DNA from: Propionibacteriaceae bacterium
GTDB lineage: Bacteria > Actinomycetota > Actinomycetes > Propionibacteriales > Propionibacteriaceae
Reading direction: 5' to 3'
DNA: 32,951 nt
Assembly (NCBI GenBank): GCA_031272805.1
Contig: JAISTC010000147.1
Coordinates: forward strand, 1-32,951
Numbering within the stretch: position 1 is the first letter of the stretch; every line of letters starts with the position of its first letter. Shown in pieces: positions 821 to 12,118 of the stretch. The notes under the pieces were generated by a model. That model saw only the letters and a list, made by a program, of their open reading frames with translations. It ran no database searches and was not told where the DNA came from. The translations under genes and the position numbers were made by a program.

Positions 821-1894
821 GTGGCACTGACAATCGGCATCGTCGGACTCCCGAACGCGGGCAAGTCGACCCTCTTCAACGCCCTGACCGGCAACAACGC
901 GCTCGTCGCCAACTACCCGTTCGCGACGATCGACCCGAACGTCGGTATCGTTGGCGTGCCGGAGCCCCGGCTGGCCGTGCTGGCGGAGATGTTCCACTCG
1001 GCCAAGATCGTCCCGGCGACCGTGTCGTTCGTCGACATCGCCGGCATCGTCAAGGGCGCGTCGCACGGCGAGGGCATGGGCAACGCCTTCCTCGCCAACA
1101 TCCGCGAGGCCGACGCCATCTGCCAGGTGACGCGCCAGTTCCGCGACCCCAACGTGACCCACGAGGCCGGGGCCGTCGACCCCGGGTCCGACATCGACAC
1201 CGTGACGACCGAGCTCATCCTGGCCGACCTCCAGACCCTCGAGAAGGCGCTGCCGCGGGTCGAGAAGGAGGCCAAGATCAAGAAGGAGGCGCGGCCGAAG
1301 TACGAGGCGATGGTGGCGGCGCAAGAGGTGTTGGAGCGGGGCCAAGGGCTGTACCTGGCGGGCTTCGACGCCAGCCTGCTGCGCGACCTGTTCCTGTTGA
1401 CGACCAAGCCGTACCTGTACGTGTTCAACTGCGACGCCGGCGACCTGGCCGACCAGGCCCTGCGGGAGTCGCTGGCCGGGCTCGTCGCCCCGGCCGAGGC
1501 GATCTTCCTCGACGCCAAGTTCGAGGCCGAGCTGGCCGAGATGGACGCGGCCGACCGGGCGGAGTTCCTAGCCGACGCGGGCATCGCCGAGCCGGGCCTC
1601 GACACGCTGGCGCGCGTCGGCTACGCCACGCTGGGGCTCCAGTCGTTCCTGACGGCCGGGCCGAAGGAGACGCGGGCGTGGACGATCAAGCGTGGCTGGA
1701 CCGCGCCCGAGGCGGCCGGCGTCATCCACACGGACTTCCAGAAGGGCTTCATCAAGGCCGAGGTCGTGAGTTTCGACGACCTCGTCGCGGCCGGCTCCCT
1801 GGCCGCCGCCCGCGCGGCCGGCAAAGCGCGGATCGAGGGCAAGGACTACGTCATGCACGACGGCGACGTGGTCGAGTTCCGCTTCAACGTGTGA
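821..1894 (+). CDS. ychF: Redox-regulated ATPase YchF (Obg-like P-loop NTPase)
   Basis: Universally conserved Obg-family TRAFAC NTPase that prefers ATP and associates with ribosomes and stress responses. The protein (357 aa) starts at GTG 821 with ALTIGIVGLPNAGKSTLF, giving G1 GLPNAGKS, then the YPFATIDPN switch, G3 DIAGIVKGAS (residues about 68-77), a coiled-coil insertion rich in Lys/Glu, and the C-terminal TGS domain ending in KDYVMHDGDVVEFRFNV. Length is close to the usual 360-365. An in-frame start 60 nt upstream would add a Gly/Pro-rich tail not found in the family, so GTG 821 is chosen; it also fits the leaderless -10 box. Likely a monocistronic housekeeping gene. Confidence 0.96.
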   Translation: MALTIGIVGLPNAGKSTLFNALTGNNALVANYPFATIDPNVGIVGVPEPRLAVLAEMFHSAKIVPATVSFVDIAGIVKGASHGEGMGNAFLANIREADAICQVTRQFRDPNVTHEAGAVDPGSDIDTVTTELILADLQTLEKALPRVEKEAKIKKEARPKYEAMVAAQEVLERGQGLYLAGFDASLLRDLFLLTTKPYLYVFNCDAGDLADQALRESLAGLVAPAEAIFLDAKFEAELAEMDAADRAEFLADAGIAEPGLDTLARVGYATLGLQSFLTAGPKETRAWTIKRGWTAPEAAGVIHTDFQKGFIKAEVVSFDDLVAAGSLAAARAAGKARIEGKDYVMHDGDVVEFRFNV

Positions 1895-2047
1895 TCGACG
1901 GTTCAATGTCCGAGGTGGTGGGCGCGCGACCTGGATGCGAGCAGCATCTCTGAGTCTCGTCGGGGTATGGCCAACAGGGGTGGTGAGGGATTACGCTGGG
2001 GACGCGGGGCGCTCCCCCTGCGAGTCCTGAAATAACGGACCGATTGA

Positions 2048-2071
2048 AAGCGGGGGCTAGGCGCCCCGCTT
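2048..2071. terminator. Hairpin between converging ychF and the small HTH gene
   Basis: AAGCGGGG (2048-2055) pairs perfectly with CCCCGCTT (2064-2071) around an 8-nt loop. No long T run follows. It lies between two converging genes, so it may act as a bidirectional terminator. Confidence 0.5.
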
Positions 2072-2074
2072 CCT

Positions 2075-2111
2075 ATGTCCTGCGGGGGGTGTCGGAGGGC
2101 GCGTCACCGGG
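2075..2111. repeat. Repeat family A, partial copy A1
   Basis: This block (TGTCCTGCG, a G tract, then GTGTCGGAGGGCGCGTCACC) recurs almost identically at the start of copy A2 at 2150. The G run is 6 long here and 9 in A2. It looks like a truncated copy of a dispersed element rather than coding sequence. Confidence 0.75.
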
Positions 2112-2144
2112 CCGTCACGATTCCCCCACTAGCAACGGAAAGAA

Positions 2145-2537
2145 TCATGATGTCCTGCGGGGGGGGGTGTCGGAGGGCGCGTCACCGGGTTTACACTCGG
2201 ACTGCGGGGGCGCGCCTGGCATCTCGGTTCTAGTCGGCCACATGGCCGGCGCCATGGCCTCGCTCGACGCCCCCGCTTCGCTTGTGATGGGGCGTAGGCG
2301 CCTCGACGAGGTCGGCGGCGAAACGGCGAGAGCGAGACGGATCATGGGCCAGGTCGCGCCTTCACTGCGGGCGCGGTCGACCGCCTGGGCAATCCGTGCT
2401 TCCACGTCGGCTCGCTCATCCATCAAGTCCATGATTTCGCGCAGAGCCGTGCCATGGTAACTGGCCAGGGGGACCGGACCGCGCCCCTCGTTCGCGTGCT
2501 CGATCTCATAGAGCATGTCGTCGTTGGATCGTGCCAT
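2145..2537 (-). CDS. Small HTH-like protein with a repeat-encoded C-terminal tail
   Basis: Hypothetical protein of about 130 aa starting MARSNDDMLYEIEHANEGRG from ATG 2537. The first 80 residues look genuine. A charged helix (REIMDLMDERADVEARIAQA) is followed by RSEGATWPMIRLALAVSPP, which resembles the GATWxxIxxALGVS helix-turn-helix of small actinobacterial DNA-binding proteins. From about residue 84 on, the reading frame runs through repeat A2 and past its G9 tract, so the tail (from TSEAGASSEAM onward) is probably acquired rather than ancestral. The ATG is chosen over an upstream in-frame start because TAGACT ends 7 nt before it. Possible regulator; no partner gene is visible. Function unknown. 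Confidence 0.55.
   Translation of the reverse strand: MARSNDDMLYEIEHANEGRGPVPLASYHGTALREIMDLMDERADVEARIAQAVDRARSEGATWPMIRLALAVSPPTSSRRLRPITSEAGASSEAMAPAMWPTRTEMPGAPPQSECKPGDAPSDTPPRRTS
2150..2285. repeat. Repeat family A, copy A2
   Basis: About 122 bp from the G tract to CTTCGCTTGT match copy A3 (2572-2694) with only about six mismatches by eye. The conserved core includes ACACTCGGACTGCGGGGGCG and CATGGCCGGCGCCATGGCC. The first 37 bp also match A1. It overlaps the 3' end of the small minus-strand gene. Confidence 0.85.
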
Positions 2538-2544
2538 CACATGG

Positions 2545-2550
2545 AGTCTA
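2545..2550 (-). promoter_or_regulatory. -10 box (TAGACT, minus strand) for leaderless small HTH gene
   Basis: On the minus strand TAGACT is followed by 7 nt and then the ATG at 2537. No Shine-Dalgarno is present. Confidence 0.4.
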
Positions 2551-2571
2551 GTGCCGCCATGAATGGCCGAC

Positions 2572-2694
2572 GGGGGTGTCGGAGCGCGCGTCACCTGGTC
2601 TACACTCGGACTGCGGGGGCGCGCCTGGCATCTCGGTTTTAGTCGGCCACATGGCCGGCGCCATGGCCAGGCTCGACGCCCCCGCTTCGCTTGT
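2572..2694. repeat. Repeat family A, copy A3
   Basis: Near-identical to A2 and in the same orientation. It is joined directly to the 58-bp repeat B, sharing the bases TGT. It does not overlap a convincing gene. Confidence 0.85.
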
Positions 2695-2749
2695 CACGCG
2701 GCCAAGGGTTCGCCGGGAGCGGTCCAGGGGGTGCTGGGGGTCAAGGGGT
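2692..2749. repeat. 58-bp direct repeat B, left copy
   Basis: Identical over 58 bp to 11502-11559, in direct orientation, from TGTCACGCGGCCAAGGGTTC to GGGGTCAAGGGGT. Together the copies bracket about 8.8 kb containing the kinase/GTPase module and the toxin-antitoxin pair. It could be an attachment-type duplication or a copy of a dispersed repeat. Confidence 0.9.
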
Positions 2750-2872
2750 TGACGCCGCGCCCGGCAGTCCGTCGTTGACCGCGACGAGGTCGCACGACAC
2801 CCCATGAGCCGTCCAGTCGGCGGACGCCGGGCTGTGGGCCGGGTTCGCAGTGATCCACTCGCAATGATCCAT
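2741..2872 (-). CDS. Possible 43-aa small protein
   Basis: Minus-strand frame from ATG 2872 reading MDHCEWITANPAHSPASADW and ending inside repeat B. The composition is balanced, with two Trp and two Cys, and most third positions are G or C, unlike the Arg/Pro-rich shadow frames nearby. There is no clear Shine-Dalgarno or -10 box and I recognise no family. It may be a remnant of a longer gene. Confidence 0.2.
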   Translation of the reverse strand: MDHCEWITANPAHSPASADWTAHGVSCDLVAVNDGLPGAASTP

Positions 2873-3010
2873 GGTGACGGCTCAGAGTGGCCGCCGCAGC
2901 CAGCCGCCACAGGCCCTCTACGCGTGCACCGAGATCAACACAAGGGGAGGTCGTGCCAGGGGGGGGGAGGAGTGACAAGGAAGCAAGGACAACAGCAGAT
3001 GCGTCGCCTC

Positions 3011-3089
3011 GGGCTCCCGCAAGGGGAGCCCTCGGCAACGCGGGACCGTCAGTCCCACTGACGGCAGGAACGACCCCGGGGACTGTTCC
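3011..3089. other. Cluster of three adjacent hairpins (structured intergenic region)
   Basis: Three successive inverted repeats: GGGCTCCC (3011-3018) with GGGAGCCC (3024-3031); CCGTCAGT (3046-3053) with ACTGACGG (3057-3064); and GGAAC (3067-3071) with GTTCC (3085-3089) around the palindrome CCCCGGGG. The first two are perfect 8-bp stems with short loops. This sits in the roughly 430-nt gene-free stretch before the FHA operon, where no convincing protein gene is seen. It could be a structured 5' leader, a small RNA or a terminator cluster. Confidence 0.5.
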
Positions 3090-3298: not shown

Positions 3299-4273
3299 AT
3301 GACAGTAACCCTTGTTTCACATGCGGGCGTCCTTGCTGTCTCTTGTGTCGTGCTCATAGTCGTCGCGTTCGTGCTCGTGGCGAACGTGTGGAGTCGGTAT
3401 CTCCCGTCCAAGCCATGGGGGGGGGCAATTGATGGCACATTGGACCGGATACGCAATTGGTTGCCCGCTCGCGACCCCAACGGCCGTGGTCTAATCAATC
3501 AGGCGGCGCGCAAGGCGGCTCGAGCCACTGTCGCGTATCCCGTTGGCGGAGTCTGCGGGGGCAGTGATCTTCGCATTGTCGTGCGAGTGGCCCTGCCGGA
3601 TCCACGCCTGGCGGAGAGGTTCAACCACAACCGCCTTGAGTTCGGCAGGCAAGTCCGCGATAAGACCATGGTGCGCGCCCGCTACTTGGCCGACCGGCAG
3701 GGCTGCGTTCTAGCTGCCCCGCGATTCAGTGTCGGCCTGGCTGCCGTCGGCCCTCGGCGAGTTGTGGTGGAGGCCACCTGGCCGGAAGACACTCCGCTCG
3801 CGTTTGTCGACATTCCCCTGGCAGACTCAGAGGTTCGGGAATCGGCGACTCCGCTGCTGCCCGCAGACGGTCAAGCTCGGTCAACCGGGGTTGGCGCGGG
3901 GACGACGGTTATGCACACGGGTCTGGTGACCATCGCGATCGCTGGCCGGTCGGCGATCACCCACTCCGAACTGGTGTGGGGGCATCCCTACAAGATCGGT
4001 CGGGCCTGTGATGGAATCCTGATCCCCGAACTGGCGGCTACTCGCAACATCTCGAACTCTCACCTGACTGCGACTTTCCTGAACTCTCAGCAGTTGGAGA
4101 TTCGCGAACATAGCGGGCCGAGAACCAAGACCAGGCTTCGTTCCGACGGTGCTTGGAAGGTCATTGAGCACGGCGACACGATCGTGGCCGACCTGCCAGC
4201 CGAAGTGCGCCTGGGGGATGGCCGAGTCACCTTGGCTTTCTCCGCTGAGGGACTTGATGGGGGCTCCGCATGA
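3299..4273 (+). CDS. Membrane-anchored FHA-domain protein
   Basis: First gene of the five-gene module, 324 aa. Residues about 8-30 form one hydrophobic segment (VLAVSCVVLIVVAFVLVANV) followed by a basic stretch, suggesting an N-terminal anchor with a cytoplasmic body. The middle (about 65-170) is an alpha/beta domain placed as in FhaA-type proteins, but I cannot confirm that family. The C-terminal 90 residues look like a forkhead-associated domain: YKIGRACDGILIPE followed by RNISNSHLTATF, keeping the phosphothreonine-contacting Ser and the structural His of the usual GR...SxxH pattern. It would bind a phosphorylated partner, presumably a target of the kinase encoded next. The Shine-Dalgarno GGGAGA lies 4-5 nt before the ATG. 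TTGACA at 3253-3258 is a possible -35, but no good -10 follows. Confidence 0.8.
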   Translation: MTVTLVSHAGVLAVSCVVLIVVAFVLVANVWSRYLPSKPWGGAIDGTLDRIRNWLPARDPNGRGLINQAARKAARATVAYPVGGVCGGSDLRIVVRVALPDPRLAERFNHNRLEFGRQVRDKTMVRARYLADRQGCVLAAPRFSVGLAAVGPRRVVVEATWPEDTPLAFVDIPLADSEVRESATPLLPADGQARSTGVGAGTTVMHTGLVTIAIAGRSAITHSELVWGHPYKIGRACDGILIPELAATRNISNSHLTATFLNSQQLEIREHSGPRTKTRLRSDGAWKVIEHGDTIVADLPAEVRLGDGRVTLAFSAEGLDGGSA

Positions 4274-4289
4274 GTAGGACCGTCGCGAC

Positions 4290-6611
4290 ATGAATAAGGT
4301 CATCCGTACCAAGCGTCCGGGCGATGCTGACCACCAGGTCGTCGTGTCAGATCAGCCGCTCGGCGCGAGAGACAAGATACCGAACGGCGACGAGATAGTC
4401 GCGTTTCGAGGCGTCTTCGCAGCCTGGCCGGAATCCGATGAAGAAGGACTGCCGCCGCTCCTGGCCTGTAAGTGCCTTGACGGGCGTGAGACGCATGGTT
4501 TCAAGACGCGCTGGGAGCGTGACGAAGCCTGCAGCCTGAAAGTGGAGAGAATTCGCAGGTGGCTGGATTCGGAGTCCCACCTCGCGCGCTTTGTCGGATC
4601 GGCGATGCACGAGTCTGAGGGAAAATTCGGCACCTGGTATGGCGTATACGAGAGGTACGGCCCTTCCTGCGCCGAAGTGCTGAGGCAGTCGGCTTCTTGG
4701 AGCGCCAACACGGCGGGACCAGAGATCCGCAATCTCGTGGAAGGTATTCTCGTCTCAGGGCTGACCGCCATCGCCGAACTGGCCCTGGGGGAGAACGATT
4801 GGAACACTCCCACGAGTGTCGTTCATCGGGATATTCGATTGCCGAATCTTCTGTTGCGCTCCATGTCGCCAGACGTGCGAGCCGTTCTCCGGGCGGGGCC
4901 GGCGGACCTCGTCCTCATTGACTATGGTCACGCGCTTGATCCGGGCGCTATGGCAATGGATCTCACTCATAACACCCAGATTGTTGCTGGCCCCTACCAG
5001 CCGCCACGTCTGCAGTCGGTGCCCACGCCTCTCTCGGGTCAGAGTCCATTGACCGACATCTTCTCGGTTGCACAATGCGCCGTTGTGGCTGCTACTCGCG
5101 GGCGAAGTTTCGGCTACTGCCGAGCGAACAAACAACCTCTGTCCTGGCCGGTACCTCCTCCTGGTGACGAGACGCCGACTAGATGGCCGGATTATTCGAC
5201 GGTCGTCGTCCCGTCAGATGACCAGTGGTGGGACGCCGTCTCGCCATCTCAAAAGTTAGCGATTGCGGGCCTGCTGCGGGCTTTCGCCAAGAGGGACGCG
5301 AGCTTTGACGCGGTGCTGGCGGATGTTGTGGCAGCGCTTCGACCATGGAACGAGGGATTGGCGGAGCGGGTTCGCAGGGAAGTCGGCCAGCAGGCGTCTC
5401 TGTGGGACTCCGGCCGTGTTAGTCCGCCTCCGTGTGAACCCACGGGGCTAGCCGACGAAGGTCTCACGCCGACCGAATGGGCCGACATGAGCGGCGTCTT
5501 CCTTGAGGCCAGTTCAGCGCGCCAACCATTTGTCCCCGGAGCGGACTGCTTGGCCGACGGAGGCGAGTCGGAGAGGGGCTTGGGTACTCCCTCTTGGGAG
5601 AAGCTGACGGCCCAATTGGGCAGGAGACCCGTGCGTCGACGCCGGACCAACCCGAACAACCCGGACGGAGGATCTCCGGGCCAGGCCGACGCGAATGGTG
5701 AATCGGGCGGTGGGAGCCCTAGCCAGGGGGGATCGCAGGGATCTGATCAGTTCGCTTCACTACAGGACATTGCCGCCAGACTCGGGAAGAGACCGATCCG
5801 GCGTCGGCAGCAGCAGGACGCCCCTCGGCGGCTTGACGCCGCGACGGCGCGCAAGGCGACATCGGCGCTGCCCGACTCCGAACCCGCGGGTCGGCAACGG
5901 GTGCCGGGGCCGGTCGCCGACGGCAGGATCGGTCTGGCCAAGAGCGGTGAGCACGGCGAACAGGGCAGTCCGCGCATTGCATCAGGCGGGAGCGTGAAAC
6001 CTGACGGCGAGGTCACGGAAATCCGGTCGGCAGGTCGAGAAGCGCTGCTGCTGGCCGTCGAGAGCACAGCCGTTCTGCCGGCGGATCTGGTTAGAGGTCG
6101 CCGGGACCACGGGCGGGCCACGAATGATGTGGTTGCGCACCCGATGTCTGCTGCGCGAGCACTGATGGTCGGACTCGCGGTCGTGCTCGGGTTAGTGGTC
6201 GCGGGTCTGCTGCTTTGGGCGAACAGTTATGCGTTGCCGTGGGTCCTGCAAGAAGAACTGGCAACCATGGATTTGGTGATCTGCGCGGTTCCGGCCGCCG
6301 TCGCTGTGTTGGTCCTTCTGCCGTGGTCGGCGGCAGCGCGTACGTACACCATGTTGGCGGGCCGTCAGGCGGTTGGTGTCGCGCTCGGCCTGGTCGCCCT
6401 GGCTGCGTGCGACTTGTGGGCCCGATCCTGCGAGGAGATCACTTACAGATTCGTGCCGACTCGGGCCTGGGACGTGCCGCACTGGAGCCAGGCCCAGTGG
6501 TGTCTGTGGGCGGTGTTGCCGTTCTGCCTCGTGGTCGGGCTGTGCGTCATTCTCCTCATGTGTCGGTGCAACCACAGCGCTGTTGCGGGGAGGTCGTCCC
6601 ATGTTTCGTGA
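4290..6611 (+). CDS. Divergent Ser/Thr protein kinase with four C-terminal membrane segments
   Basis: 773 aa. The N-terminal kinase domain (about 15-360) has candidate VAIK Lys K61 (LLACKCLDG), catalytic loop HRDIRLPN at 179-186 (H179, D181, N186), a metal-binding DYG at 211-213 in place of DFG, and GPYQPPR where APE is usual. The glycine loop is weak. All key catalytic residues are present, so activity is plausible. A long disordered linker (about 395-615) holds two copies of an 18-residue basic motif, beginning SWEKLTAQLGRRPVRRRR (435-452) and SLQDIAARLGKRPIRRRQ (490-507). The C-terminus has four hydrophobic segments (about 625-645, 662-680, 693-711, 736-757). The gene starts 16 nt after the FHA gene and overlaps the next by 11 nt. 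It likely phosphorylates module partners read by the FHA protein. Confidence 0.85.
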   Translation: MNKVIRTKRPGDADHQVVVSDQPLGARDKIPNGDEIVAFRGVFAAWPESDEEGLPPLLACKCLDGRETHGFKTRWERDEACSLKVERIRRWLDSESHLARFVGSAMHESEGKFGTWYGVYERYGPSCAEVLRQSASWSANTAGPEIRNLVEGILVSGLTAIAELALGENDWNTPTSVVHRDIRLPNLLLRSMSPDVRAVLRAGPADLVLIDYGHALDPGAMAMDLTHNTQIVAGPYQPPRLQSVPTPLSGQSPLTDIFSVAQCAVVAATRGRSFGYCRANKQPLSWPVPPPGDETPTRWPDYSTVVVPSDDQWWDAVSPSQKLAIAGLLRAFAKRDASFDAVLADVVAALRPWNEGLAERVRREVGQQASLWDSGRVSPPPCEPTGLADEGLTPTEWADMSGVFLEASSARQPFVPGADCLADGGESERGLGTPSWEKLTAQLGRRPVRRRRTNPNNPDGGSPGQADANGESGGGSPSQGGSQGSDQFASLQDIAARLGKRPIRRRQQQDAPRRLDAATARKATSALPDSEPAGRQRVPGPVADGRIGLAKSGEHGEQGSPRIASGGSVKPDGEVTEIRSAGREALLLAVESTAVLPADLVRGRRDHGRATNDVVAHPMSAARALMVGLAVVLGLVVAGLLLWANSYALPWVLQEELATMDLVICAVPAAVAVLVLLPWSAAARTYTMLAGRQAVGVALGLVALAACDLWARSCEEITYRFVPTRAWDVPHWSQAQWCLWAVLPFCLVVGLCVILLMCRCNHSAVAGRSSHVS

Positions 6612-7854
6612 CTCTGTCTCGCGGTGCTTGGCGATGGTTGGGTTACTGTGCAGCGCAGCGGCTGTGGGGATAGTTGTGACTGTGCTCGGGTTCTTGGATC
6701 TGCGGACGGACGGTGATGAAGCAGTGGACCGGGCGCTGACCATGACGAGCGCAGCCACGTGCGAATCGCCGTATTCTTGGAACCGGCCCACCTGGTTGGG
6801 ATGCGTCGAGACAACTGAGGGGTGGTCTCTCATGAGCGTGTCTGAGTTGGCGCAGGATTCCATGGTTATTGTGGGGAAATTACCCGACCCCACGGTCGGC
6901 TTGGGCGCCAGCGCGAGTCCAGTGATGGGGTTACACAATCTGGATTATCCATGTCTGGACGCATTTGTTCAGATGTGGCAGGGGATTAGTGGATCGGTAT
7001 CGACGGGAGTCAACGCTCAAGCGTTCGGGGGCAGTGATACCGACGTGGCGTGGTCCTCCAGATATGTGCGTGGTCATTCGGTCCGTTGGACAGCGGGGGA
7101 GTTCACTTGGGAACTCCTTGAGGCTGAACAGGATTCGGCTGGTCGTCTGCTATCGCTGGAGCCGTGGACCAGCGGGGTCTTCGACTCCACGACCCGCTAC
7201 GACATTACCCAGTCTAGCGGTGTCGGCCAGACCGGGGTCACGGTGTATTTCCGGGAGTCAGGATGTACGGCGGAATCCCGTTTCGAGTTGGACCTCGAGG
7301 AGAGCGCGTTCTTGGCGAATGTTCGCGCCTCCGACCTCACTCGACTGGACCGGTCAAAGCAAAAGGTCAACGCCACGCTTTATGATGACGTCTTGGGTTC
7401 TTCGGCTTGGACGATCCCGCTTCAGGCCGTGGTGAAGGGCGGATCGGCGAACGAAACAATTCGCTTCAAGGTCCAAACCCCGGGTGGTGATCCTTTGGAG
7501 CAGGGCCAAGGCAACGAAGAGCAGGCAGAGGTGTTTGCGGAGGCCAGCATCGGATTGGGAACGTCGAAGGGATCTCCGGTCTCGTTGCGCCTCGCCGAGT
7601 CAGGCTACTCGCCTACTTGGGGCACTGCAGAGGAGTGCCGCTCTGACCTTCTTGGTGACTACCCGCAGTGGGAATACTTCGGTTGCCAAGCGGCCGACAG
7701 TGGAGTGTGGCAGTTCTACACTGCAAGTTTTTCCCTTGGCGGCGGCAAGGACGTTGTCGTCGAAGCGGATATATTCATTGTGGCCGAGGATGAGACGAAT
7801 GACGTGTGGAACCGCGCTCGTGCTCTGTTGTCGGGCATCGCGGTCGGCCCATAG
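6601..7854 (+). CDS. Single-pass membrane protein with Cys-containing extracytoplasmic domain
   Basis: Not a recognised family. 417 aa from ATG 6601, which has the Shine-Dalgarno GGGGAGG and overlaps the kinase stop by 11 nt. A longer in-frame frame starting at 6373 would lie inside the kinase gene and is rejected. Residues about 9-33 form a membrane anchor or signal anchor. The remaining 380 residues are acidic, rich in Ser/Thr/Gly, with a beta-rich look and scattered Cys (TCESPY, LGCVET, YPCLDA, SGCTAE, EECRSD, FGCQAA), suggesting disulphides outside the cell. Inference: it is the sensory or surface component of the module, coupled translationally to the kinase. Confidence 0.75.
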   Translation: MFRDSVSRCLAMVGLLCSAAAVGIVVTVLGFLDLRTDGDEAVDRALTMTSAATCESPYSWNRPTWLGCVETTEGWSLMSVSELAQDSMVIVGKLPDPTVGLGASASPVMGLHNLDYPCLDAFVQMWQGISGSVSTGVNAQAFGGSDTDVAWSSRYVRGHSVRWTAGEFTWELLEAEQDSAGRLLSLEPWTSGVFDSTTRYDITQSSGVGQTGVTVYFRESGCTAESRFELDLEESAFLANVRASDLTRLDRSKQKVNATLYDDVLGSSAWTIPLQAVVKGGSANETIRFKVQTPGGDPLEQGQGNEEQAEVFAEASIGLGTSKGSPVSLRLAESGYSPTWGTAEECRSDLLGDYPQWEYFGCQAADSGVWQFYTASFSLGGGKDVVVEADIFIVAEDETNDVWNRARALLSGIAVGP

Positions 7855-7892
7855 CACTTGTTGTGCACTCAACGCGAAAATAGGAGCGCCTC

Positions 7893-9068
7893 ATGAAGAT
7901 GATCAACCACTGCCCGATCTGTGCCGCCCAAGTTATTTGGGACGGCGCGGAGTGCAATGTGCGTTATCTCGATGCGCGCGGCCGGGTGCGACACAGGCCG
8001 GGCCCAGACGCGACGCCGCAGGAGCGACACGAATTCGCTGTCCAAGCGTGCCATGAATACTGCCCGAACTTGCATCCTTTGCCGAGCATGCCTGTGGTCA
8101 GTATGGGGGTTTTCGGGTTCACTCGATCTGGCAAGGGCGCCCTCGTCCGTGCGTTGGCTCGGCAAGTCATCAAGCAACCCCTGGCTGACGGATTCTCGAT
8201 CGAGCCTGCAGGACGTAGCAAACCGTTATTGCGCCGACGTTACGGGGACGACCTGCAGCAAACCCCGCTGCCACCGGAAGGCGACCATCCCGCAAGCCTG
8301 TTCTTCGATGTGTGGAGGGAGGAGCGACGGCTCGGAGAGTTTCTTGTTTATGACACAGCGGGCGAGGCGCAGCAGGTTCTATTTACTGAGGACGCCGACT
8401 CGGCGACCTCTCAGTATCGACAGAGATACCCGTTCGTCCCCTTCCTGGATGCGATTATTATCGCCGTGGCCCCAGGGTGCCTCACCGGATTCGAGGAATA
8501 TGATGCGCATATTGATCAGGAAAAATTCGGTGGGGCCAACCAACTTAGCGAGACCCTCGACATCGTCGATACCATCCGCGATTTCTATGAAGAGTTTCCC
8601 TATGTCGAGTTCAAAGATCGGACTATTTTTGTGGTCCTGACCAAGTGTGATCGATACGAAAGAGAACCTTCGTTTCCGCCGGAGCTCCTACTGTCGCGCG
8701 CTGAGCGCCAGTACTCGCCGGTGGCGCGCGCGGCTAAGGGGCGAGGTTTGGATGCGAGCGCCGTACGTATTGATGAATGGATTGGGCAGATCGAAGAAGA
8801 GGGCCAGGTTGTCCGTCAGTTTGTCCTGTCCCATGGGGGGCAGGCTCTGGTCAACAGAGTGGAGAGCCTAGGGGAGACGTACTACGTGGCGCTGTCGGGG
8901 GCAGGCAACGACACCGACACGAGCGCGGAAAGGCCGCAGAGTAAGTTGCACCCACCCGCCCGGGTGGGAGCGCCAGATCGGGCCTTGGACCCCTTCGTGG
9001 CGCTTCTATTCCAGGAAGGGCTTGACGAGCCCGCCGACCGCCCGGATCAGGATGCCAGCCGTGGCTGA
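7893..9068 (+). CDS. Zn-finger / P-loop GTPase (TRAFAC-like, conflict-system type)
   Basis: 391 aa. The N-terminus carries a putative zinc-binding unit: C7-P-I-C10 and C53-HEY-C57, followed by PNLHPLP. The G domain follows: P-loop GFTRSGKG at 75-82, switch motif DTAGE at 154-158, the G4 motif TKCD at 250-253, and a likely G5 ALSGAG near 331. Gly82 replaces the Ser/Thr that normally follows the P-loop Lys and coordinates magnesium, so nucleotide handling may be unusual. The start has the Shine-Dalgarno TAGGAG and sits 38 nt after the previous gene. The following GAP1-like gene overlaps its 3' end. Such Zn-ribbon GTPases next to GAP1-type proteins are known from predicted bacterial conflict and signalling systems; the link here is inference from order and motifs. 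Confidence 0.8.
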   Translation: MKMINHCPICAAQVIWDGAECNVRYLDARGRVRHRPGPDATPQERHEFAVQACHEYCPNLHPLPSMPVVSMGVFGFTRSGKGALVRALARQVIKQPLADGFSIEPAGRSKPLLRRRYGDDLQQTPLPPEGDHPASLFFDVWREERRLGEFLVYDTAGEAQQVLFTEDADSATSQYRQRYPFVPFLDAIIIAVAPGCLTGFEEYDAHIDQEKFGGANQLSETLDIVDTIRDFYEEFPYVEFKDRTIFVVLTKCDRYEREPSFPPELLLSRAERQYSPVARAAKGRGLDASAVRIDEWIGQIEEEGQVVRQFVLSHGGQALVNRVESLGETYYVALSGAGNDTDTSAERPQSKLHPPARVGAPDRALDPFVALLFQEGLDEPADRPDQDASRG

Positions 9069-10647
9069 ACAGCGGCGACTTGAGCGCCTCATGGTGTCCT
9101 GGGCTCAGCGCACGCTGGTCGGAACCAGCCACGGCGCTGTTGCCCGGTCCGCCGGGTGGCGGTGGCCCGTCAGCCACACGAGTTCGGCCTTGGCACCCTT
9201 CTCTTTGTTGGCGATAGGGCACATTCCCGATCAACTGCCCGACGGCTACACGGCCTTGTCCTACGAGCCCCAACACGAGTGGGGAACTGTTGTCGCGCTT
9301 CGGAAGAAGCTGTCGTCAGAACGTGCCGTGAGCGACGCCCGTTTCGTGTCCGAGATCGTCGTGGATCCATTCGACCAGCACGGAACGGCGGAAGGGATCT
9401 CCTTGCAGGACGCCTTGAACTGGATGGACAGCGCGGCGCCAGCTCTCTGGTGGGAAGCCGACTGGTCTCCGAATCCTAATCTTGATCCCGCTGAGATTGT
9501 CACGGGAAAGACCTCCTCGTGCGTGGTCGACCCGAGTTTCGATGAACGGCAGATCCTCTTCTTGCGCTGGTTCTTGAGTTCGCTGCTGACCCAACGACCG
9601 CTGGTGGTGGTCCACGACGAACTCGGCACTCCCCGACCCCTGTTGGACGCCATGCTACGTGTCCTACCGCCATCCCTGGTGCGACAGGTCGGTGTCACGA
9701 CCTACCACTCTCAGCCTGATCTCAGTCCATTCAAGTTGTCTTTTGCGTGGTCTCCGGCCGCGATTCTCAAGCCAGGGCTTCGTCCCGACATGGATTTCCT
9801 TGACTTGGACTCGGCGCCCCTGGCCACGCCTGTGGATGACGTTCTGGGTTCAGAGGAGGTGAAGCTTCTCCTGACGGGCGCAGCAAGAGCAGCCACGGGA
9901 GTGCAAGATGTCAGAGGGCTCGGGGACTATCTTCGGGCCTCCACCCTCCTGTCGCCGTCGGGCTGGGCCCGACCGAGGCGCGGAGGCTCCCCGCCGCGAT
10001 CTGTCGACATGGACACGACGGACTGGCTGACTCAAGACGGCGTGTCTCGTCTAGGCGAGCCAGCATCCAGAGTGCCCCAACCCTTCGGAACACCACCACT
10101 CTCGTCCGCAGTCGCTGCGGAGCGACGGCCTCGGCCCGACCATCTCCTGGGGGGACCAACTGGTCTGAATGGCACTGCGGAAGACGTGACCGTTCCGGTG
10201 GCTCCTCCTCCACCCCGTTCGGCTGCCGTGCCGTTGTCGCCCGTCGCGGAGCAGCTTTCGTCAACTCGGGACCAGCGCACTGGTGATGCCCAAACCTCTC
10301 TTCGAACACGCACGGGCGGTCGTTCTCGTTCCCGACTGGCTTTGGGCCTCGTCGCTGCGCTGATCGGCCTGGCTTTCGGGTTCTTCTTGGGACGCTTGAC
10401 CGACGCGCCGGAACCAAACGTTCCAGTCTGCACCCCGACGGATGCTTCGCCCAGCCCTAGCGTTGCCTCACCGAGCCCTTCCTCGGAGCCCACGGCGGGA
10501 CCGCCACTGGCGAGCACGGCCTCATCCCCATCGACCCGCGCGACGGCTCCTCCCGAGCCTGAGGTGAATCCTGCGGAGAGCGCCGGCGCTCCCGACGTGC
10601 CAGCATCGGGACGCCCTTTGGTCGCCGGAGGAATCACTCCAGGCTAG
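9052..10647 (+). CDS. GTPase-associated (GAP1-like) protein with C-terminal membrane anchor
   Basis: 531 aa if started at ATG 9052. TTG 9022 is also in frame, but its AGGAAGGG is only 1 nt away; GTG 9061 and ATG 9091 are further options. The early segment LMVSWAQRTLVGTSHGAVAR resembles the first strand and the G-x-G-x-VARS turn of GTPase-associated protein 1 N-terminal domains. A central region (LVVVHDELGTPRPLLDAMLR...) is consistent with the middle domain of that family; this is moderate-confidence recognition. A low-complexity linker leads to one membrane segment (about 428-450, LALGLVAALIGLAFGFFLG) and a Pro/Ser/Thr-rich tail of about 80 residues outside. It overlaps the GTPase gene by 17 nt, supporting functional pairing. 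Last gene of the module. Confidence 0.65.
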   Translation: MPAVAEQRRLERLMVSWAQRTLVGTSHGAVARSAGWRWPVSHTSSALAPFSLLAIGHIPDQLPDGYTALSYEPQHEWGTVVALRKKLSSERAVSDARFVSEIVVDPFDQHGTAEGISLQDALNWMDSAAPALWWEADWSPNPNLDPAEIVTGKTSSCVVDPSFDERQILFLRWFLSSLLTQRPLVVVHDELGTPRPLLDAMLRVLPPSLVRQVGVTTYHSQPDLSPFKLSFAWSPAAILKPGLRPDMDFLDLDSAPLATPVDDVLGSEEVKLLLTGAARAATGVQDVRGLGDYLRASTLLSPSGWARPRRGGSPPRSVDMDTTDWLTQDGVSRLGEPASRVPQPFGTPPLSSAVAAERRPRPDHLLGGPTGLNGTAEDVTVPVAPPPPRSAAVPLSPVAEQLSSTRDQRTGDAQTSLRTRTGGRSRSRLALGLVAALIGLAFGFFLGRLTDAPEPNVPVCTPTDASPSPSVASPSPSSEPTAGPPLASTASSPSTRATAPPEPEVNPAESAGAPDVPASGRPLVAGGITPG

Positions 10648-10790: not shown

Positions 10791-11057
10791 ATGACGACGA
10801 CTCTCCCACGGCATACGGTCACGGAAAGCGCGGACTTGGCCGAGTCACTGGCCATGGGTCGCCTCGCCTGGCCTGACGAAACGTCAACGTCACGGCTGAT
10901 TGCGCGCCTGGCCGCGCTGGGGCGGGACAAGCTGAAGGAAGACCCCGAACTGGCCTACCGGGCCCGGCTGGCCAAGGTCACCGCCCTAGCGGGCAAGCAC
11001 CCGTCCAAGCTCGGCCCGTACTACCTCGATGACCTGCGGCAGGAATGGGACCGGTGA
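10791..11057 (+). CDS. VapB-like antitoxin
   Basis: 88-aa protein starting MTTTLPRHTVTESADLAESL. An N-terminal strand plus two helices (SADLAESLAMGRLAWPDETS, TSRLIARLAALGRDKLKED) would fit a small DNA-binding antitoxin with a C-terminal toxin-binding segment. The assignment rests mainly on the 4-nt GTGA overlap with the PIN-domain toxin gene that follows. The exact DNA-binding fold cannot be decided by eye. Antitoxins of this type bind the toxin and repress their own promoter. Confidence 0.7.
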   Translation: MTTTLPRHTVTESADLAESLAMGRLAWPDETSTSRLIARLAALGRDKLKEDPELAYRARLAKVTALAGKHPSKLGPYYLDDLRQEWDR

Positions 11058-11425
11058 CCTCCGACCTGGCCGCGCTTGACGCCGGCGTCGTCATCGCCTG
11101 GCAGACCCCGGAACACAAGTTCCACGCCCGCTCTCTCGAGGCCATCGCTGCGTGGCCGCGCCTCGTGATGCACACGGTGAACCTCGCGGAAGTGCTCGCC
11201 GGACTCGACCGGGACGAGTGGGCCTCAACCATCCGCGACCTCCACGCGATAGGCTGCACGATCCGCGACACGACCGCGCAAGAGTTGGCCGCCGCGCAGT
11301 TCGACGGCAACCTACGAATGACCGACGCCTGCGTGCTGGCCGTGGCCAGAGCACAAGCCGCCGACGCCGTGCTCACCTTCGACGCCCGCCTACGGCGAGT
11401 CTGTGACGCCGATGGCTTCGCCTAA
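11054..11425 (+). CDS. VapC-like PIN-domain toxin ribonuclease
   Basis: About 123 aa if started at GTG 11054 (GTGA overlap with the antitoxin stop, and AGGAATGGGA upstream); ATG 11045 is the alternative. The PIN acidic residues are present in order: the Asp of ALDAGVVIAW, the Glu of VNLAEVLAGL, the Asp of MTDACVLAVARAQ, and the Asp of LTFDARLRRV. These form the magnesium site of the RNase active centre. VapC toxins cleave tRNA or rRNA when released from the antitoxin. The pair lies just inside the right 58-bp repeat and could stabilise the island. Confidence 0.88.
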   Translation: MTSDLAALDAGVVIAWQTPEHKFHARSLEAIAAWPRLVMHTVNLAEVLAGLDRDEWASTIRDLHAIGCTIRDTTAQELAAAQFDGNLRMTDACVLAVARAQAADAVLTFDARLRRVCDADGFA

Positions 11426-11501
11426 GACCCCAGGAGACACCCGCATGGACACTGGACATGGAAGACCTGGCGGCAAACCCTGGGGCTCACACGTGACTGC
11501 G

Positions 11502-11559
11502 TGTCACGCGGCCAAGGGTTCGCCGGGAGCGGTCCAGGGGGTGCTGGGGGTCAAGGGGT
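11502..11559. repeat. 58-bp direct repeat B, right copy
   Basis: Identical to 2692-2749. Here it covers the stop and last 18 codons of the acetyltransferase gene, so the protein ends LTPSTPWTAPGEPLAA, the same peptide the left copy would encode. Placement at a gene's 3' end resembles an integration site. Confidence 0.9.
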
Positions 11560-12118
11560 CGCCGGGGTGGAGTTCGGCTGACCAGCAGGGGCCGGCGTCC
11601 GGGTCGGTGAAGAGGCCGGTGTAGCGGAAGCCGAGGCGGTGGGCGATCCGCGCCGACGGCTGGTTGCCGAGGTAGGCGTGCCACGTCACGGTCGTGGCCT
11701 GCAACGGGTAGTCGGGTGAGAAAGCCGTCGTCACGAGGAGCGCGGTCGCGGCCGTCACGATCCCCTGGCCGCGGTAGGGCACGCCCAGCCACCAGCCGAT
11801 CTCGAGCGTGCCGCCGCCGTGGCGCTTGAGGCCGGCGCAGCCGGCGAACCGGCCGCCCACGCGCATGGCCCAGACGAGTTCTGGCCCTGCCACGGCAGCC
11901 GACGGGGGTGCCGTGGTGGCGGCCTCCCACGTGGCGGCCGTGCTCGCGACAAAGTCGTCCGCGAACTCGCGCGGGTAGGGCGAGGGCACCGTCGTCCAGC
12001 GGGGGATCGACGGGTCCTGGACCAACTCGTAGATGGCGTCGGCGTCGGCCGGCGCCGGCGGTGACAGCAGCAAGGGCACACCCAGATGGGTGGTGGTGGC
12101 CAGTTCCCGGAGGTCCAT
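11504..12118 (-). CDS. GNAT-family N-acetyltransferase
   Basis: 204 aa from ATG 12118, RimJ/RimL-like. It transfers an acetyl group from acetyl-CoA to an amine; the substrate is unknown. Visible are the N-terminal strand LGVPLLLSPPAPADADAIYE, the acceptor-side segment SIPRWTTVPSPY, the strand GTLEIGWWLGVPYRGQGIVT containing the acetyl-CoA pyrophosphate loop (R/Q-x-x-G-x-G/A type), and LGNQPSARIAHRLGFRYTGL near the end, typical of this family. The last 18 or so residues are encoded by direct repeat B and look appended, since family members normally end soon after the YTGLF strand. TAGGCT 6 nt before the ATG on the minus strand suggests leaderless expression. Confidence 0.9.
   Translation of the reverse strand: MDLRELATTTHLGVPLLLSPPAPADADAIYELVQDPSIPRWTTVPSPYPREFADDFVASTAATWEAATTAPPSAAVAGPELVWAMRVGGRFAGCAGLKRHGGGTLEIGWWLGVPYRGQGIVTAATALLVTTAFSPDYPLQATTVTWHAYLGNQPSARIAHRLGFRYTGLFTDPDAGPCWSAELHPGDPLTPSTPWTAPGEPLAA

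Follow-up and report, generated by a model that had tools for sequence, protein, structure and literature searches.

A putative kinase-linked DO-GTPase/GAP1 module from a Propionibacteriaceae bacterium, with relatives beside SEDS genes

Introduction

Systems that pair a DO-GTPase with a GAP1 protein were defined by Kaur et al., 2020 (PMC7159879) and are predicted there to be conflict systems; here and below, the literature is cited from the available parts of each source. Three GAP1-N2 themes were distinguished, built on tubulin, on HSP70 or on an active kinase with PP2C and vWA proteins, and in the kinase theme the PP2C and vWA neighbours are usual, not universal. In the main text of that paper FHA is named solely for effectors of the vWA systems and in the reference list, and FtsW, RodA, transpeptidase and penicillin have 0 occurrences each. 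Described here is a module of five plus-strand genes (3299-10647) from a Propionibacteriaceae bacterium (assembly GCA_031272805.1), located on contig JAISTC010000147.1, positions 1 to 32,951; this whole stretch of 32,951 nucleotides is referred to as the window. An earlier reading of the window from its letters alone (the sequence-only reading) had proposed a membrane pathway of FHA reader, kinase, outer sensor, GTPase and GAP1-like protein. It had noted that GTPase/GAP1 pairs are known from predicted conflict systems, which PMC7159879 bears out, including a theme with a kinase.

The module is like that kinase theme in its zinc-ribbon DO-GTPase followed by GAP1, its kinase with transmembrane (TM) helices, its actinobacterial host and its membrane setting. 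It is unlike it in having a separate outer sensor, a TM protein with an unproven FHA end and a short GAP1, and in that no PP2C or vWA gene was found nearby. The PstP-RodA-PbpA-PknA-PknB-FhaA/FhaB locus of Actinobacteria (PMC6554272) combines a kinase with an outer part (PASTA kinases), FHA proteins, a phosphatase and RodA/PbpA, and differs from the window, where neither SEDS and penicillin-binding protein (PBP) genes nor PP2C were found. Wall synthesis is also controlled by MviN, of which a pseudokinase is part, together with FhaA and PknB (PMC12599244); the likeness lies in the logic of kinase, (pseudo)kinase and FHA at a wall-building membrane protein, and the difference in the GTPase, which is missing from the available part of that source. 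Streptomyces conservons (Cvn; PMC8510531, PMC13343842) are actinobacterial operons with a membrane sensor kinase and a GTPase, and differ from the window in their histidine-kinase-like sensor, roadblock protein and small Ras-like GTPase. The PSP paper (PMC11237479) predicts a role in membrane-related stresses for a DO-GTPase. We judge the chances to be about even that the module belongs to the DO-GTPase/GAP1 systems as a divergent and probably mobile member, with a core of kinase (or pseudokinase), DO-GTPase and GAP1 that works as proposed in the Discussion.

Results

Gene order and the Herbiconiux counterpart

Five consecutive, densely packed open reading frames (ORFs) were confirmed on the plus strand. 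The first (3299-4273) encodes a membrane-anchored protein of 324 residues with an N-terminal TM helix (residues 1-19), an alpha/beta domain (residues ~90-175) and a C-terminal region. The second (4290-6611) encodes a Ser/Thr-type kinase of 773 residues with four C-terminal TM segments, and the third (6601-7854) a TM-anchored outer sensor protein of 417 residues, recognised by homology to the C-terminal ectodomain of a fused Herbiconiux kinase and assigned to no family. The fourth (7893-9068) encodes a DO-GTPase-like GTPase of 391 residues with N-terminal zinc-ribbon-like cysteines, identified by tblastn, profile and trees, and the fifth (9052-10647) a short-form GAP1 of 531 residues with one C-terminal TM segment and a Pro/Ser-rich tail, identified by Pfam GAP1-M. 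Kinase and sensor genes overlap by 11 bases, and GTPase and GAP1 genes by 17 bases provided that the ATG at 9052 is the start. Hydropathy placed TM segments in proteins 1, 2, 3 and 5; the sole hit in the GTPase falls within its fold and was excluded from the count. The packing of the genes and the membrane segments in four of the five proteins thus agree with the sequence-only reading, and so do the kinase motifs. HRDIRLPN and DYGHA are present, so that the catalytic motifs HRD...N and DYG are kept and catalytic competence is predicted. The kinase had no Pfam kinase match and a weak match to the PD-T4-6 defence kinase model (E 5e-5). Domain scans of the five module proteins found no nuclease, toxin or pore domain, consistent with the earlier remark that no effector is visible.

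Homologues of the kinase, sensor, GTPase and GAP1 were found together, at 25-30% identity, in one cluster on a Herbiconiux plasmid (L032). Homology of four of the five proteins to a single cluster upholds the claim that membrane kinase, external sensor, zinc-ribbon GTPase and GAP1 belong together. Kinase and sensor are fused into one protein in Herbiconiux, so the separate pair in the window very likely works together. The Herbiconiux set is comparable to that of the window but has more genes, including a PP2C and a fusion of SEDS (FtsW/RodA) with penicillin-binding transpeptidase (L032 2764-5445, Pfam). Its make-up mirrors that of the PstP-RodA-PbpA-PknA-PknB-FhaA/FhaB locus. To our knowledge the latter locus contains no DO-GTPase or GAP1. 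Between SEDS-PBP and PP2C lies a further Herbiconiux protein (L032 5498-6661), whose N-terminal part looked beta-rich by eye.

GTPase, GAP1 and first protein

The window GTPase matched the Herbiconiux plasmid protein by tblastn (E 6e-18). It had no Pfam hit of its own, and the Herbiconiux protein scored 21.1 bits to DO-GTPase2, under the cut-off of 27. A profile iterated from the window GTPase joined the DO-GTPases of GAP1 loci, and this profile and the trees put both proteins among DO-GTPases that pass the cut-off (e.g. L159, L167). That the window GTPase belongs with the DO-GTPases is supported by these comparisons, as a prediction; the Zn-finger GTPase of the sequence-only reading would accordingly be a DO-GTPase with zinc-ribbon-like cysteines. 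The Walker B region reads DTAGE in the window GTPase, with the conserved Glu present, and deviates in Herbiconiux (NTAGD). By our own reading, the Glu of DTAGE would be the published conserved Glu of the DO-GTPase family. The P-loops are GFTRSGKG in the window (8115-8138) and GLPRSGKD in Herbiconiux (L032 9986-10996), without Ser/Thr after the Lys.

The fifth protein, encoded downstream of the GTPase gene, passed Pfam GAP1-M marginally (25.0 bits, cut-off 24) and had no Pfam GAP1-N hit at E 1; its N-terminal region is conserved with the Herbiconiux counterpart. Its earlier description as GAP1-like is supported by the marginal pass and this homology, and we treat it as a probable GAP1. The in-house GAP1 reference profile was weak, since the L037 GAP1, which Pfam GAP1-M matched, failed it too. 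FNIII gave no hit in the five module proteins or in five neighbouring proteins scanned by Pfam, and the module was therefore not filed as a typical GAP1-N2 system.

The first protein had no Pfam match and was assigned to no family. An FHA domain in 3299-4273 was unsupported by Pfam, hhalign, a shuffled hidden Markov model comparison and BLAST, so the FHA reader that had been proposed was left unconfirmed; GR and SxxH residues alone fit. The AlphaFold model (single-sequence, mean pLDDT 45) has a helix at 2-34, a beta-alpha-alpha-beta-beta arrangement at 92-160 and a C-terminal half without resolved fold, which includes the region in question. Foldseek with this model gave no match at E <= 0.001. 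A second FhaA_N-like hit, in G058, was rejected: a kinase match lies nearby, with no GTPase match around it. As a whole, the observation in the sequence-only reading was partly confirmed and its interpretation partly supported.

The kinase-linked GTPase branch

Trees were built from 105 GTPases, and a more careful tree from 37 rows picked from these, with G439 and other long branches left out and both groups thinned. Window and Herbiconiux GTPases pair in both trees and group with the same relatives. In the 37-row tree the pair has support of 100/99, and these two, G672 and groups A and B (15 rows in all) separate from 22 other DO-GTPases with support of 95/87. The branch as tallied below includes G439 and L179, whose placement comes from the 105-row tree alone (support 91, on a very short branch); the L178 GTPase failed the length filter and is absent from tree and tally.

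In 21 of 26 branch members, against 0/73 other DO-GTPases and 0/6 second GTPases, the GTPase gene is directly preceded on its strand by a gene for a kinase or pseudokinase. By this domain-distance rule the kinase domain (E <= 1e-3) had to end <=1,200 bases from the start of the GTPase domain on the same strand, and Herbiconiux, the window, L173, L174 and L179 fail it. When gene adjacency was counted instead (kinase ORF ending within 450 bases of the GTPase), the figures were again 21/26, 0/73 and 0/6, with Herbiconiux in and L169, L173, L174, L179 and the window out, so that the two sets differ by one. The window fails the adjacency rule because its sensor gene sits between kinase and GTPase. 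Adjacency is weak in L168 (E 9e-6, 432 bases), and in L174 a single ORF holds both the kinase match and the GTPase. Outside the branch, L164, L165 and L172 have a kinase match upstream, yet it adjoins the GTPase by neither rule; with a broader kinase profile, several loci outside the branch gave kinase hits, none of them next upstream of the GTPase. A SEDS gene was found within 6 kb downstream in 11/26 branch members (0/73 others, 0/6 second GTPases). The Herbiconiux SEDS gene lies upstream of the GTPase and hence outside this count. Members of the branch served to train the pseudokinase and SEDS profiles, which favours the branch. Twelve control loci around YchF gave no match to the six profiles used.

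Group A (L166, L167, L170 and L171, from one genus) has an FhaA-like protein, kinase-TM, DO-GTPase, a protein in the GAP1 position, and SEDS with transpeptidase, which is the order of the window minus the outer domain and plus SEDS/PBP. The first protein aligns weakly to FhaA (hhalign E 0.0016). SEDS and transpeptidase are adjacent in L166 and fused in L167 (13210-16179, Pfam), L170 (6079-9015) and L171 (2792-5851), the last two by in-house profiles, as Pfam was run on L166 and L167. As to recurrence of the order in unrelated actinobacteria, a comparable, larger set was found in one other lineage, Herbiconiux; in this one further genus the outer domain is absent and the first protein only weakly FhaA-like. 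The metal-binding motif of the kinase is DFSHA in all four group A members, DYGHA in the window, DLGHA in Herbiconiux, DLSHA in Nonomuraea and DFQHA in L157.

In group B the HRD motif is replaced by HRQ, HRN or HRA in six proteins encoded next upstream of a DO-GTPase (L155, L156, L157, L159, L160, L161). Having lost the HRD aspartate, these look like pseudokinases; pseudokinases before DO-GTPases are not mentioned in the available part of Kaur et al., 2020 (PMC7159879). The SEDS-like protein of group B is over the Pfam cut-off in L155, L156 and L178. L206 (Nonomuraea gerenzanensis) resembles the published kinase theme in having a vWA gene (850-3072), which precedes the genes for a kinase-like protein (HRR, DLSHA) and a DO-GTPase. 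The L206 record is 11.85 Mb long and is filed among plasmids.

Distribution

The window GTPase had no match in the other 95 of the 96 genomes of a first survey, or in the 18 further genomes of its genus. With a two-row GTPase profile, strong matches among 391 genomes of the order were confined to the source genome and G672, with six marginal hits (E 0.004-0.01); among 198 genomes of the family the source genome, G672 and G866 were matched. Kinase-TM, GTPase and GAP1 genes are adjacent in G672 and G866 (one genus) and in G439. A weak FHA-type profile gave no match near these three modules, the G672 contig being 6.3 kb. GAP1-M was matched in 49/394 genomes of the class, and a four-row GTPase profile in 49/374 genomes. 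Two pattern scans of genome contigs (25 and 42 matches) and one of viral contigs (19) confirmed no relative, and plasmid searches with the window kinase and first protein found none. Profile A1 gave 0/121, a count of little weight since A1 misses the G439 GTPase.

Repeats and neighbouring genes

A 66-bp direct repeat was found by repeat search at 2689-2754, a possible island end, and at 11499-11564 (95%), where it overlaps the 3' end of a GNAT gene (11504-12118, minus strand). These are the only two copies in the whole assembly (88.8% complete). The segment they bound contains the five module genes and a plus-strand PIN-domain (VapC-like) gene (11045-11425, Pfam PIN 45.9 bits), preceded by a short plus-strand ORF (10791-11057) that is antitoxin-like by position only. 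GC content is 62.5% in the module, 71.8% downstream and 67.6% upstream. With the flanking repeats and lower GC, the module looks like an integrated mobile element or island. The window proteins that were scanned included no recognisable integrase. Synteny was compared through YchF in 12 relatives (stretches of 3.6-17 kb) for 15 window genes; YchF alone was shared, plus a response-regulator match in L113 (58%, ~12 kb away), so no empty site was obtained. A separate 136-bp repeat with two copies (92%, spacing 409) lies upstream of the module at 2163-2707.

Discussion

We propose that the outer domain (6601-7854) and the membrane part of the kinase would form one transmembrane receptor, through which an envelope signal would alter kinase activity. 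The kinase would phosphorylate module partners or host proteins, and the phosphorylation state would set the DO-GTPase/GAP1 pair, with GAP1 tethered at the membrane. The pair would then switch a machine in the membrane. For some relatives the most likely candidate is a SEDS peptidoglycan polymerase together with its penicillin-binding protein; the window module would have to act in trans, on cell-wall or other envelope machinery of its host. The cell envelope is pointed to by the recurrent SEDS gene of the relatives, in some with a penicillin-binding protein; a SEDS polymerase, and not a nuclease or toxin, is the clearest recurring extra gene in the relatives surveyed. Hints of wall control thus come from the relatives, by analogy, and not from the window itself. 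A link of kinase, DO-GTPase, GAP1 and SEDS appears unreported in the literature searched on DO-GTPase/GAP1 and on SEDS/pseudokinase, some of it consisting of titles and abstract openings. Going further, kinase/pseudokinase-DO-GTPase-GAP1 would be a second, GTPase-based form of peptidoglycan control that gates SEDS, a mobile parallel to PknB/FhaA/PstP/RodA/PbpA, with the window as a receptor-bearing satellite on host polymerases; this extension is speculative and, in our estimate, rather unlikely.

Several observations weigh against the proposal. Long branches, the window's included, meet in the 105-row tree (with a program warning), so that the tree is support and not proof. The Fisher counts take related loci as independent, several being from one genus. 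No SEDS gene was found downstream in 15/26 branch members, including the window, G672 and G439, and some members have tubulin-like genes instead (L157, L162), matching the published tubulin theme. Among the SEDS-like proteins called with the in-house profile in L151, L152, L159 and L160, Pfam recognises no family in the first three, L160 being outside the Pfam scan, and the protein of L153 is below cut-off. The protein in the GAP1 position of group A has no profile support as GAP1. In the window, profile search found no SEDS or PBP gene; PP2C was found neither by a one-sequence profile nor by Pfam in 20 window proteins, and the window proteins scanned by Pfam likewise contain no vWA. The FHA domain is not confirmed in the window. 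Finally, a Ser/Thr usually follows the P-loop Lys; with none in window and Herbiconiux, nucleotide or Mg binding may be altered and GTP switching is uncertain.

A serious if doubtful contender is a conflict system in which detection of an invader or of envelope damage would set off an output that stops growth or kills the cell, with the PIN gene as effector or passenger. It is the proposal made for the family (PMC7159879), and it would suit the mobile context (66-bp flanking repeats, GC of 62.5% against 71.8% downstream, a relative on a plasmid), the lack of GTPase matches in the rest of the genus (18 genomes), the weak kinase match to PD-T4-6 and the PIN-domain gene in the same repeat-bounded segment. 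Such an output is harder to reconcile with five proteins in which no nuclease, toxin or pore domain was found, and with recognisable branch extras that are wall-building enzymes, kinases, PP2C, vWA and tubulin, most neighbours being unassigned and the relatives not searched for PIN genes. SEDS linkage in 11/26 argues against a developmental or envelope-stress module without wall-enzyme output, a conservon-like relay in which GTPase/GAP1 would act on gene expression or cytoskeletal assembly. Tubulin-like genes in L157 and L162 would fit such a relay, as would the pairing of sensor kinases with small GTPases in conservons (PMC13343842), but the five proteins had no Pfam hit to the conservon domains (histidine-kinase-like, roadblock, small Ras-like GTPase), and we think it improbable. 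That unrelated genes are neighbours by chance is hardly credible given the gene overlaps and the clustering of homologues of four genes in a different family, where kinase and sensor form one protein, even though one other lineage only has a similar five-part set and the GTPase is otherwise absent from searched relatives save G672 and G866.

For the DO-GTPase/GAP1 systems, described so far as predicted conflict systems, a branch with a kinase or pseudokinase repeatedly next upstream and, in 11 of 26 members, SEDS downstream gives a concrete, testable target in the cell-wall machinery. A function for pseudokinases ahead of GTPases would be suggested as well, and the Herbiconiux fusion singles out the two window proteins that are expected to make up the receptor.

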